Notes under the pieces: model-generated
The model's database searches: none
Told to the model about the DNA's origin: nothing
Seen by the model: the letters and a program-made list of their open reading frames with translations, nothing else
Position numbers and translations under genes: made by a program
Part shown: positions 1-4,361 of the stretch, piece by piece
Layout of the letters: each line of letters begins with the position of its first letter
Position numbering within the stretch: position 1 is the stretch's first letter
Origin: Ferruginibacter sp.
Lineage (GTDB): Bacteria; Bacteroidota; Bacteroidia; Chitinophagales; Chitinophagaceae
Direction: 5' to 3'
Length of the DNA stretch: 64,000 nt
Assembly (NCBI GenBank): GCA_025963635.1
Contig: JAOQAK010000054.1
Span: 1 to 64,000, forward strand

Positions 1-33
1 TTTGTTCACTGGCAGAAGGGGATTAAATATTGA
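1..33 (+). CDS. Group II intron reverse transcriptase/maturase, last 10 residues
   Basis: The first 33 bases read FVHWQKGIKY and then a stop. The FVHWQ ending is shared with the intron-encoded protein on - at 2917-3099, which ends LFVHWQYGYTP, and the stop lies 11 bases before domain V, as expected for an intron-encoded protein. Only the extreme C-terminus is visible. Whether the rest of the protein is intact cannot be told from this window. Confidence 0.7.
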   Translation, partial: FVHWQKGIKY

Positions 34-117
34 CTGAATAACAAGAGCCGTATGAAGGGAGACTTTCACGTACGGATCTGTGAGCGGCTGAGGCTGAAAT
101 GCTTTGGTCTACTCGAC
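1..117 (+). mobile_element. Group II intron, 3' end (domains V and VI)
   Basis: The window opens inside a group II intron read on +. The hairpin at 45-78 has the form of domain V: 34 bases, GAGCC at the 5' base, ACGGATC at the 3' base. It is followed by a domain VI-like arm (GTGAGCGGCTGAGG) ending in CTACTCGAC at about 117, which fits the AY 3' end of such introns. The same arm, with the same ending, is found inverted at 889-937, so the two introns are close relatives. The rest of this intron lies to the left of the window. The 3' border is placed by comparison of the two copies, not by a known exon junction. Confidence 0.8.
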
Positions 118-269
118 CTCTTTCTAAGAAGCTTTTCGGTAATTTTATAATCATCATTCTTTTAAGCATTTCCACCGGGCTGGACCAGCATCAATTCCCT
201 GCCCTTCGGCAATGCAAAACGTTAGGCGAAACTTTATCGTCACTCTACCACAATTCCTCAATTTAAAAA
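118..269. other. Spacer after the intron, with a GTTAGGC core-like site
   Basis: No coding sequence is evident. The stretch directly after the intron (TTCGGTAA followed by an AT-rich TTTAT) resembles the 3' flank of the inverted intron near 845-865. At 221-227 there is GTTAGGC inside ACGTTAGGCGAA, which fits the GTTRRRY right-hand core of integron attC sites and lies 43 bases before the next reading frame. No matching left-hand core is visible, so this is only a lead. Confidence 0.3.
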
Positions 270-752
270 ATGCTTAAGACGATTTTATCATTTGCATTTT
301 CAACCTTACTTTTCTCTTGCTCAAATACACAAGACTTTGAATCTACAGTCAAAAAGTATATTACAGATTACAGATTCCATATTTGCAACATTTAATGACC
401 CTCCTGCCGATATATTTCTATGCAGGCTGACACAATAACCGGAAGCATAGTTGACAAGCAATTCTTTGATAATAACAGTGAGGCAGTAGAGTATTTGAAA
501 AAGCAAAAAGAACGATCATATCTGAAAAATAATAAAGAAACAACAGGACTAGATGTAGGAGACCAAGTCCTGAAAGAATATATTAGACAATTTGACGACC
601 GAAAAGAACATCCCTTAAAACCTGACTCAATCATTCAAGTAAATGTGAATGTTAAGTATAAACGAAATGAACTGGGAACCTTAATATTTAGAGACCTATA
701 TCTAATATATTACCCTAAAGAGAAAAAGTTTATTGTAAGAAAAACGGAATAA
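270..752 (+). pseudogene. Small lipoprotein gene broken by two compensating frameshifts
   Basis: An ATG at 270 opens a lipoprotein-like start (MLKTILSFAF, then LLFSC as lipobox) that stops at 393 in its own frame. From about 373 to 415 the neighbouring frame reads on sensibly (DSIFATFNDPPADIF). From 420 the first frame resumes with MQADTITGSIVDKQFF and runs to a stop at 752. Joined across the two shifts it would be a protein of about 160 residues with a hydrophilic, Lys-rich C-terminal half. I do not recognise the family. It sits between two inverted introns, away from any operon. Sequencing error at two places could give the same picture. Confidence 0.45.
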
Positions 753-996
753 AAATTGTTCAAAGTAGATTTTAGCAATACAGATCCATAGCAAATTTGT
801 ATTAATTAAAAAAGGAAAATTTGAGATTTTAAAGGCGCGAAAATAAATTTTACCGAATATTTAAGCCTTCTTTAAGACAGTTTGAAAAGTCGAGTAGAGC
901 AAGGGTTGCCAAATGTACAACCCTCAGCCGCTCACAGGTAGGGTCTAGCAGTGGCGCATTGATCCTTAAGATGATGTTTCCACCACCCGCCTCGTC

Positions 997-1030
997 AAAC
1001 GCACCGTGCGCATTTAACGCACTGCGCTTT
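997..1030 (-). ncRNA. Domain V of the inner group II intron
   Basis: On - the sequence starts AAGCGCAGTGCG and ends GCACGGTGCGTTT. A 7-pair lower stem, a 2-base CG bulge on the 3' side and a 5-pair upper stem (GTGCG with CGCAC) can be drawn by eye. This is the characteristic catalytic hairpin of group II introns. It lies 33 bases after the reverse transcriptase stop. Pairing was drawn by hand, not computed. Confidence 0.6.
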
Positions 1031-1062
1031 CCTAATGATTTCATTTAAAAGTTTATAGCCTA

Positions 1063-2353
1063 TCATGTCCGAACAACTTTCCTCGGGGATACTTTAAAGT
1101 CGCTGCAAATATTGTGTACAGCATATAGTCCCTTTGTACTCCATTCTTTCCAACCGAAGCCACGTTTTCCTTTGGCCTTCATCTGATGCCTCCGGAGCTT
1201 CAGGGTTAGCCAGTCTTTTAGATATCCAAATGCTTTGCTTGAATTGCCTATTTTAAAATATTGCACCTAGCCACGCAGTATTGGATTGATAAGGTCTCTT
1301 ACCCTTGTCAGTGGTTGCGATTCATACCGCTGAAACACATCCCGTATCTTCTCTATCACTTTAGTCCTGGCCTGCATCTTAGGCTGATAGTTTACCCTCC
1401 ATTTTCCAGTCTTCGTTTTTAATCTTCTAAATTCAAAGCCAAGGAAGCCGAAGCTATCGCCTTTCGCTAATCCAGTTCTTTGGTCTTTTCTTCGTTGATG
1501 TGTACCTGCAGCTTGTTCAGTTCTTCCCGTAGTCTTTTATTGATCCCCGCCCATAGCCAGTCCCATTTACGATGTCCATCCACCAAGATCACTACATCAT
1601 CAGCAAAGCGTGCGTATTCCACATGCGTATATTTTCCCTCCCGAGTTGTTTCTTTTGCTTTCTCAAGCATTTTATCCAATTCGTTGAGGTAAATATTGCT
1701 CATCAATGGTGAAAGAACGGATCCCTGAGGAACCCCTTCCTTTCCTCCAATCTTAAGCATCTGTTTGGTCAGTCGCATGATCTTTTCATCCACAATCCGC
1801 TCTGCAATTTTTGCCAATAAAATGTGATGTTTCACTGTGTCAAAGTAACTTTTCAAATCCAGATCAATCACCCGTGTCTTTTCTTTGACTACAGCTTCTG
1901 CTACTTTTTCTATCGCTGCGTGGGCGGTTCTTTTGGGCCGGTAACCATAGGACCCATCCTGGAAGTCTGCATCAAACACAGGCTCCAAAATCAGTTCACA
2001 GCCCCCTGTACAACCCGGTCCCTGATCGTTGCGATCCCCAGCTTCCGGGTTTTCCCATTAGCCTTGGGTATCTCTTTGATCCGGTTGCGGGTGGGTTGAT
2101 AAGTTCCTTTGACCAACTCGTCCTGTATGCTTCGCAGAAAACCGTTTACCCCGCTCTTTTCAATGTCACCGAAGGTCATTCCATCTATCCCTGGCGCCCC
2201 ATTATTTCTTTTGGCCATTTGGTAGGACTCGATCAGGGTTTCGGCCTTACATACGTGAACATACAATCCCCAGAAACGATGGTCTTTATCAGCCTTCGCT
2301 TTCATGTATATCTTCCTTCTCAGTTCCTGCAATGAAATAGACGTTTTTATCAT
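1063..2353 (-). pseudogene. Inner-intron reverse transcriptase/maturase, inactivated
   Basis: The protein starts MIKTSISLQELRRK at 2353 and carries the usual reverse transcriptase blocks: GAPGIDGMTF, then SYGYRPKRTAH, GVPQGSVLSPLMSNIYL and the catalytic FADD (in YARFADDVV), followed by maturase sequence ending SPRKVVRT. It is broken three times. A one-base loss near 1990 shifts the frame after VVQGAV. Another shift lies near 1467 after EEKTKELD. A TAG at about 1267 replaces the expected Trp in the maturase motif RGWVQYF. Family members splice and mobilise their own intron. This copy cannot make a full-length product as read, so mobility would need help in trans. Confidence 0.85.
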
Positions 2354-2866
2354 TGTCGTCTTTGCCTCCCATTTTTGTTAGAAGAATATCATTAGTAAGG
2401 AGACTTCGCTCCATTCCTATTAAGGAACTTCTCAGCTACTTTTCTCCTATCCGACTCCCTCTCATCTTCAGTTCATTTCCTTATTTCAAGTTATAGAACC
2501 TACCTTTTTCCAGGCATTTCTGCCGGGGATGAGGAGGGTATCTCCAGTTGCGTTACATATCCTTGTTACCATGCTATTGCTACCACCCCGCCAGCCGTGT
2601 CATTTCCCGTTTCAGTCAATTTCGGAGAGACATGCTGCCTTCGCTATACGGTTAATAGCTCGGCCTGCCGGATTTAATCACTTTCGAGGCTACCTGTGCA
2701 TTCACTTGCGTTATGGCCTGGTAACTTGCGTGCCTGCTTTACAGGACACTTTTCAATGAGCTTCATGAGTTTCATTTCTTCCACCCATGTCATTTAGCTC
2801 AGAACTTTGACTTTTATTCTGATGGGACTTGCACCCATTGGATATGTCCACCTTAGCTGGACGCAC
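2354..2866 (-). other. RNA domains I-III of the inner group II intron (non-coding)
   Basis: About 510 bases on - between the 5' GTGCGTCC end of the inner intron and its reverse transcriptase. There is no convincing reading frame on either strand; the apparent + frame at 2529-2759 has no recognisable protein. Length and position match the structured 5' domains of group II introns, which hold the exon-binding sites. I did not fold it. Confidence 0.6.
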
Positions 2867-2899
2867 AACCGTGCGTGAACCTCTCGGCTCATATGGCTC
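2867..2899 (-). ncRNA. Domain V of the outer intron, cut at its last base
   Basis: On - it reads GAGCCATATGAGCC, then GAGAGGTTCACGCACGGTT. Compared with domain V of the first intron (45-78 on +) it lacks only the closing C. That C is present at 937, on the other side of the inner intron. This exact split is the main evidence for the nested arrangement. Confidence 0.7.
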
Positions 2900-2916
2900 T
2901 TACAGGTCAAAGTGAT

Positions 2917-4055
2917 CTAAGGGGTATAGCCGTACTGCCAATGCACAAACAAGTTGGGAAAGTTTTTATAGTCCTCTCTTAGCTGTGTCCGTGCCTCTTT
3001 CATACGTCTTCGGAACCGCTTATATTTGTTAGTGTACCAGCACACTAAACGGTCATTCAGTTTCGAAAATACCTCCTGTAAAGCTGATGGGTTAAACACT
3101 GAGAAATAACGGATCCAGCCACGGATCTGCGCTCCTATCCGATCTGCAATTACCGGCAGCGTTAGCGAAGTTGACCGATGAATTCTTAATCGCTCAAAAT
3201 ATTGAATAATCCGTTTCTTCGACTCATTGCTGATCCTTGTCGGTAGGCAATGTGCCTTTGGCCATCCTTACACATCACCAGAGACGGACTGAATTCATAA
3301 CCCAAAAAGTCGAATTTCACCGTCCCGTTATTCCCCCGGCGATTGGACTGCTTGCAATAAACAATCTTCGTCTTCTCCGGATGCAACTCAAGTTTACAAG
3401 CTGCCATCCGTTTCCGGATACGAGTCAGCAAGTATTTGGCTTCCTTCTCCGTTTTGCAATGAACGATAATATCGTCCGCGTAACGTTCCCATCTTACACG
3501 TCCGGACGTGGGTTTATCTGCATAATGCTTTTGCATCCATCCATCAAACACCACATGCAAAAACATGTTCGATAGTAATGGGCTGATCACCCCACCCTGT
3601 GGTGTGCCCTTCGTCCGCTCTGCCAGTCTGCCGTCGGGAAGCAACATCGGACTTTCAAGCCACCGCCTGATATACAACAGAAGCCACGACTGACTGAAGT
3701 AGTTTGCTACCACTTCCAGCATCAGTTCATGGTCTATGTTATCAAAGTAGCCCTTAATGTCCATGTCGATCACCCAACCACACTCATGACAACGATCCAG
3801 ACATTGGCGGATCGCTTGGTGCGCCGACTTCCCGCAACGATAACCATAACTGTCCAAATGAAACACTTTTTCCATCACCGGTTCCATCACGTTGACCGCA
3901 ACCTGCTGCGCTATACGATCTGTCACCGTTGGTATTCCCAGCATCTTTTGCCACCATCCATTTTGAGTATTTCCACACCACATATCGCTTTGGAAAATAG
4001 CTACCGCTTGACATCCGATTCCATAACTTGTACAGCAAACCCGCTTTCGACACAT
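2917..4055 (-). pseudogene. Outer-intron reverse transcriptase/maturase, truncated and frameshifted
   Basis: Reverse transcriptase blocks are clear on -: LLYKLWNRMSSGSYFP in one frame, then after a shift near 3975 GIPTVTDRIAQQVAVNVMEP, SYGYRCGKSAHQAI, IDMDIKGYFDNIDHEL, GTPQGGVISPLLSNMFL and the catalytic YADD (in WERYADDIIVHC). A second shift near 3190 leads into the maturase end, whose last frame is 3099-2917 and closes LFVHWQYGYTP. The N-terminal block before LLYKLWN is not recognisable, so the gene is truncated at its 5' end as well. It is a different lineage from the inner reverse transcriptase and close to the one ending at base 33. No functional product is expected. Confidence 0.85.
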
Positions 4056-4361
4056 CGGACTGTTGAAGGCCTTTGGCCAGCATCGATTCCCTGCCCAAGA
4101 AAAATCTTAAAACTTTTGAGATTTGCCATGAGTGAGTGGATGATTGATAAATCTGTCCTGTAAAATAGAAGAAACACCGGTAAAGTAAGGCGTACATTAG
4201 ATAGCCTGATGGTAAGAATGGCCTAAAAACAAAGTGAACGTTTCATATAAAATTCATAACAGGCAGTAATCAGCTTAACTAAGAGCAATTTTTGGAATAA
4301 ATGAAAAAGTAACCGATTGCATTTTTTTATTTAAAAAAACCTTATTTCCTTTGATAAAAAG
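4056..4361. other. Junction of dead intron and lacI promoter region
   Basis: About 300 bases between the truncated intron and lacI. I see no gene. The frame on - at 3784-4197 that enters it is an extension of the broken reverse transcriptase. The right half is AT-rich promoter-like DNA with a LacI-type operator at 4308-4321 and a possible -7 element, TTCCTTTG, at 4346-4353 (one mismatch to the Bacteroidota TAnnTTTG). Confidence 0.5.
4308..4321. promoter_or_regulatory. LacI-family operator upstream of lacI
   Basis: The site AGTAACCGATTGCA matches the general LacI-family operator pattern TGnAAnCGnTTnCA at all but its first base. It lies 40 bases before the lacI start, so autoregulation is likely. 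A second near-copy with the same ACCGATT core lies just after lacI at 5423-5436. The assignment is by pattern and position only. Confidence 0.55.

Follow-up and report, generated by a model that had tools for sequence, protein, structure and literature searches.

The inner intron of the psbF twintron in the Euglena chloroplast also splits domain V (D5) of a group II intron, as does the intron described here; it differs in being a fixed gene intron of a chloroplast and not a mobile lineage that targets D5. In the archaeon Methanosarcina acetivorans, the target of nested introns lies in intron ORFs. Methanosarcina introns repeatedly home into other introns, and M. acetivorans is set apart from the system described here by being archaeal and by nesting up to five introns, according to the available part of a review (PMC4424553). 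Twintrons are already known from bacteria, and in the two for which the available parts of the sources give a readable site the inner intron lies in domain I (D1) or domain IV (D4). In Thermosynechococcus elongatus the inner site falls between two start codons of the outer RT ORF, in D4 (PMC2882425, available part). That system resembles ours in that EBS/IBS pairing is good, the site is a conserved one of another group II intron, and identical inner introns occur in diverged outers, but its inner introns lie in D4, lack an ORF, are related to their outers and come from one genome, whereas those described here lie in D5, have their own RT, occupy unrelated outers and occur in many genera (PMC2882425, available part). 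Trichodesmium is likewise a case of bacterial nested group II introns; sequential splicing was shown there, which we only infer here, and its inner intron lies in D1, at a single locus in a gene (PMC4649490, available part). The literature that we searched, which covers few subscription papers, held no bacterial D5 twintron and no D5-targeting lineage.

Here we follow up a nest in the first 64,000 nucleotides of contig JAOQAK010000054.1 of Ferruginibacter sp. (GCA_025963635.1), hereafter the window. We consider it very probable (roughly 0.88) that D5 serves one lineage of group II introns as a homing site programmed by sequence, with EBS1 and EBS2 as guides, and that the nest in the window is a decayed case. 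This reading is based on the recurrence of the site, the covariation of EBS1 with IBS1, pairs of filled and empty outer introns, and the presence of one inner intron in unrelated outers. Other loci are denoted by L and a number.

A group II intron splits domain V of another group II intron

Read along the minus strand, the outer intron runs as ...GAGCCATATGAGCCGAGAGGTTCACGCACGGTT up to 2867, the inner intron begins with GTGCGTCCAG at 2866 and ends as ...GACCCTAC at 938, and the outer intron resumes with CTGTGAGCGG from 937 to its 3' end, CTACTCGAC at 889, which is kept in the copies elsewhere in the genome. The insertion separates nt 33 from nt 34 of the outer D5, at the terminal base pair of the hairpin. 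A first-pass annotation made from the sequence alone had given both joints and the split at a base pair correctly, and had pointed to an uninterrupted D5 in the intron at the window start; that plus-strand copy (43-117) indeed has the unbroken ...CGTACGGATCTGTGAGCGG and scores 61.1 bits against RF00029 (Table 1).

Table 1. Nested introns and associated features in the window
Feature	Position	Strand	Remarks
Inner group II intron, GTGCG...CCCTAC	938..2866	-	1929 nt; sequence reading and RF02003
Outer D5, first 33 nt (target); IBS1 at 2867-2872	2867..2899	-	stem damaged
Outer D5 last nt, linker and D6 up to outer 3' end	889..937	-	read from sequence and own-genome copies
Sister outer intron 3' end, uninterrupted D5 (45-78) and D6	1..117	+	contig begins at window 1
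Outer RT remnant, residues 48-412 of 418, three frames	2938..4035	-	N-terminus missing, no D1-D3 found
Inner RT/maturase, three frames and one stop	1066..2353	-	broken
Inner intron's own D5, 3' strand TGCGTT instead of ACGGTT	997..1029	-	by eye, against relatives' own D5
EBS1 of inner intron, AACCGT	2648..2653	-	6/6 pairs with outer-D5 ACGGTT; unbiased covariation scan
EBS2 of inner intron	2678..2681	-	pairs with exon -9..-12; weaker than EBS1

The inner element starts with GUGYG, ends after CUAC and has exact empty-site boundaries, which agree with those of relatives and with filled and empty pairs (the pairs being those of relatives, not of the window copy). A covariance model, the check proposed in the first-pass annotation, assigns 2840-2706 to D1-D4 of the inner intron (RF02003, 83.8 bits), 26 nt inside its 5' end; the offset is the same in L051 and L062, and 13 relatives score 105.7-120 bits. 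The inner intron is 81% identical across its length to a Salegentibacter copy (L051), and one fragment of its RT in the window has an RVT_1 match. Both introns have the same orientation, and the site is uninterrupted in sister copies. The nesting itself, a group II intron inside D5 of another as first described, is confirmed by the joints, the Rfam match and the relatives. The annotation had also suggested looking for the outer intron without the inner one, and uninterrupted D5 sequences were found in the own genome and in plasmids of Bradyrhizobium, Rhizobium and Paraburkholderia.

The window nest is a fossil in which both partners are dead. Both RTs are frameshifted, each across three frames (2353-1997, 2006-1461 and 1503-1066, with one stop, in the inner RT). 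The outer remnant spans from a break near 4060-4035 down to 889 on the minus strand, and in the fold of the joined D5 the middle stem stays open. A sister of the outer intron in the same genome (L132) has an RF01999 D1-D4 match of 87.5 bits and an open RT of 418 aa; compared with it, the window outer RT begins at about residue 48 (window ~4035). The outer intron is not otherwise complete: RT residues 1-47 are missing, and no D1-D4 match for it within the window reaches the Rfam threshold. As both introns are decayed, we regard the nest as the remnant of one D5 insertion event. Sequential splicing, which the annotation implied by proposing that the outer intron could fold only once the inner one is removed, finds no support for this copy, with outer D1-D3 not found and both RTs broken.

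The own genome has a single copy of the inner intron, and outer copies with intact ...CGTACGGTTC occur elsewhere in it (contigs C73 and C74). Four of its contig ends (the starts of C73, C74 and C93 and the end of C96) lie ~44-52 nt outside an outer-type D5, which suggests that a multi-copy outer intron was collapsed in the assembly. Separately, the 3' flank of the plus-strand sister intron (window 118-224) is a dispersed repeat that recurs at several sites of the genome (78-93% identical along most of the repeat) and in part also at 4075-4096, beside the outer-intron break; with its hairpin-like core it may be attC-like or another kind of repeat. A 110-aa ORF without a Pfam match (window 420-752, plus strand) lies between both outer intron ends.

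Domain V is a recurrent insertion site in many genera

With the inner RT fragment and a single relative as queries, a collection of 84,980 species yielded at least 542 confirmed stretches, of which the best 80 were kept. Boundaries were examined in 46 loci among these best 80 (L051-L096), while L097-L130 entered a motif scan only. The 5' end was readable in 27 of the 46 loci: 12 lie in D5 (L051, L052, L053, L055, L057, L061, L062, L063, L067, L068, L091 and L096), 14 lie elsewhere, and one, L074, is preceded by a D5-like hairpin and was counted as ambiguous. Among the other 19, L064, L066 and L070 are placed in D5 by a D6-like 3' flank, their 5' ends being unreadable, L065 and L076 are unsure, and the remainder are elsewhere or have no readable flank. 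Two 5'-truncated copies from another genus of the host family (L012 and L014) end against D5/D6. Across the best 80 of the at least 542 stretches (1.33 Mb, both strands) there are 2160 GTGYG sites; a D5 motif precedes 12 of them, and all 12 are 5' ends of the inner-intron class.

Going by record titles, the D5 inserters include Bacteroidota, proteobacteria, Desulfofustis, Pelodictyon and others, several being metagenome bins. L057, titled Acidobacteria, groups with Burkholderiales introns on the RT tree and may be mis-binned or transferred. Among plasmids, a query made up of 35 nt of D5 and 301 nt of intron found 37 records, a redundant set with many near-identical Bradyrhizobium plasmids; the match starts at base 1-3, from D5 on, in 23 of the 37, at base 25 in two, at base 35-36 (intron only) in nine and at base 228 or beyond in three. 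Near the host, close relatives are scarce (4 of 394 family genomes, own included, and 1 of 298 order genomes, the own), and among 395 genomes of the phylum the junction pattern is present in the own genome only. In viral contigs, the 16-letter junction pattern (15 fixed bases) occurs in 35 stretches, none with D5 upstream, and a D5-plus-start pattern gave no match; phages and E. coli genomes likewise gave none. D5 is therefore a frequent site and not an exclusive one, given that about half of the placed loci lie elsewhere and that D5 insertion does not form one clade (see below).

Guide sequences covary with the insertion site

In 29 introns, each column of the intron was compared with exon positions -1 to -20. 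This recovered EBS1 as an antiparallel run of nt 214-219 against -1 to -6 (with the L138 row misplaced by two bases), in which 21 to 29 of the 29 introns are paired per position and the -6 pair is weakest; EBS2 was recovered more weakly, as nt 186-189 against -9 to -12. With the L138 row corrected and G-U counted, 164 of 174 EBS1-IBS1 positions are paired in the 29 introns, compared with a mean of 97.3 and a maximum of 124 in 10,000 shuffles. Every row has at least 5/6 pairs and 19 rows have 6/6. The 15 rows outside the D5 group pair at 86 of 90 positions, a value equalled by none of 5000 shuffles (maximum 63). Within the D5 inserters alone, 1196 of 5000 shuffles reach the observed value, the shuffle being uninformative there because their targets are nearly alike.

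In the relatives, as in the window, the pairing partner of EBS1 is the 3' strand of D5. Departures of the outer D5 from its usual sequence tend to be followed by EBS1, to judge from L061 (ACAGTT/AACTGT), L067 (ACGGAT/ATCCGT), L138 (TCGGTT/AACCGA) and L163 (GCAGTT/AACTGT). L055, L160 and L162 fit less well, with 5/6 EBS1 pairs with or without wobble. Because the site is hit repeatedly and fits the guides of the intron, such a nest is no rare accident.

The same inner intron occupies unrelated outer introns

In Bradyrhizobium, one outer intron type is found both empty and filled. Empty plasmid copies (L139, L140 and L141) are 99.3%, 97.8% and 90.2% identical to the outer intron of L136, and the same type is filled in L136 and L143 with exact joints and zero added bases. 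By eye, L140 and L143 have the start of the 3' exon in common. L136 and L143 have both inner and outer (99.5%) in common and different 3' exons.

Copies of the Bradyrhizobium inner intron in L136, L143, L159 and L162 agree at 99.8-100% over 1944-1945 nt (100% over 1944 nt between L136 and L162), and L160 shares its first 400 nt with them. No blastn match over 2500 nt upstream links the outers of L159 and L162 to those of L136 and L143 or to each other, and outer RT identity among L143, L160 and L162 is 32-43%. In their last 800 nt, the outers of L160 and L162 have only 29 nt of D5 in common, the D5 sequence being the same. In L062 and L063, the first 400 nt of the inner intron are identical, compared with 84.8% identity over the last 800 nt of the outer. 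As far as sequences can tell, the pattern is one of recent, independent insertions. At position 3012 of L163 the invaded D5, GAGCTGCTTG...GAGCAGTT, is similar to the D5 that belongs to L089 itself. As L089 is distantly related to the inner class, this class may also invade its own relatives.

Alternative explanations

An ordinary intron might have landed in D5 once by chance, and the single copy in the own genome, together with a junction pattern confined to that genome within the phylum, is what such an event would leave. The same D5 position is however filled in many genera by introns whose guides fit it, and near-identical copies occupy it in outers that are unrelated, which leaves chance nesting with next to no credibility. 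Group IIC introns recognise hairpins at terminators, and an intron class with that habit could enter D5 merely as a hairpin. D5 forms a strong hairpin, folding energies are low for the 5' exons at D5 sites, and two of the rows not counted as D5 (L059 and L074) have folding z below -2. Yet the other 13 of these 15 rows have z above -2 and no marked hairpin, contrary to a group IIC-type rule of insertion beside a hairpin, while the 15 pair EBS1 with IBS1 as closely as described above. The common rule is therefore pairing and not hairpin structure, and targeting of hairpins as such is very unlikely. We reject both chance and hairpin targeting as main explanations.

Equally improbable as a general account is composite spread, in which nests move or duplicate as a whole and a small number of insertions underlies the recurrence. 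Single pairs may be explained in this way: L136 and L143 agree in inner and outer and differ in 3' exons, and L160 and L162 agree over 29 nt of D5. Near-identical inner introns in outers that do not align (L136, L159 and L162) are beyond its reach, and the identical inner sequence in the more diverged outers of L062 and L063 also speaks against it.

Nests with open reading frames

Some nests may be alive. In L062 (Burkholderia sp. OK233) the frames of the outer RT (517 aa) and the inner RT (454 aa) are both open, and L162 has two adjacent annotated RTs of 413 and 459 aa by coordinates; from these frames we would count both nests as possibly active. In L143 the outer RT is annotated and the inner RT matches only partly; the inner intron there exceeds that of L136 by one base. 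The two intact inner RTs of L051 and L062 have RVT_1 and GIIM domains, and no endonuclease domain was found in either. RT similarity lies upstream of 11 of 16 D5 loci, the window included. No outer RT was found within 3.5 kb upstream in L055, L061, L067 and L137, and L091 offered only 55 nt; with none upstream in 4 of the 16 D5 loci checked, the outers often look decayed.

Several loci have further layers. L067 has D1-D4 matches upstream, with two D1D4-6 matches upstream of the invaded D5, and L057 has two RT-like stretches upstream of its invaded D5; these doubles are perhaps tandem or further nested introns. By eye, L062 (2885-7170) seems to be a three-level nest, with the outer intron inside a transposase gene that we take to be IS6-like. 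The reading frame of the outer RT in L062 stops inside D5.

RT phylogeny and the introns' own domain V

We placed 45 rows on an RT tree, of which 16 are D5 rows, three of them labelled through the 3' flank only; L087 and L093 were dropped as too short, and L058, L072 and L094 stand without a label. D5 insertion requires 8 changes on this tree, at least 6 of them forced by starred branches, compared with a mean of 13.3 for shuffled labels, of which 1 in 500 was as low; near-copies in the tree add to this clustering. A single clade of D5-targeting introns finds no support on this count, the trait being clustered and not single. One supported clade unites the window intron with L051 and L052, all three inserted in D5.

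In many relatives, the own D5 is a hairpin of 33-34 nt. Our script, which failed in many rows including the window and took a wrong stretch in L060 and L068 (rows excluded), found none in the window inner intron, and there was no RF00029 match at the gathering score; by eye the hairpin is present with one pair changed. Most members with a found own D5 have an altered 3' strand (TGCGTT and similar), whereas two more distant ones, L088 and L095, are canonical. In all eight D5 inserters with both readable, EBS1 pairs with the own D5 at 2-5 of 6 positions, compared with 5-6 of 6 for the target, the margin being one pair in L067. Self-avoidance stays a suggestion because members inserted elsewhere have the same altered D5, and as a trait of D5 inserters only it is weakened.

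We put at about even odds a wider reading, in which distant bacteria would harbour a hyperparasitic guild of group II introns inside the catalytic core of others, the victim's splicing and mobility would hinge on the guild's removal, and the guild would owe its escape from self-insertion to compensatory base-pair changes in the D5 of its members (mostly TGCGTT compared with the target ACGGTT/CCGGTT).

Discussion

We propose that D5, which is highly conserved in other group II introns, offers in its 3' strand a match to EBS1 and EBS2 of the inner lineage, and that the intron RNA with its RT would reverse-splice into D5 DNA just before the last nucleotide and then be copied in. Priming might take place at replication forks, as is known for introns without an endonuclease (PMC4424553, available part). 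Splicing of the inner intron first would restore D5 exactly. D5 would be a good harbour because it is present wherever group II introns are, insertion is in sense, and splicing would restore it.

Twintrons may have been undercounted, as is suggested by one published extraction program by which the outer intron of a nest is not detectable (PMC8919778, available part). Natural filled and empty pairs and nests with open frames offer material for questions of nested-ribozyme splicing, and further questions are opened, such as whether an occupied outer intron can move and how introns avoid targeting themselves. The lineage described here would mean that introns are themselves parasitised by introns: retroelements that use guide-RNA pairing to parasitise the catalytic centre of elements like themselves, with a target, D5, that a group II intron can hardly give up.
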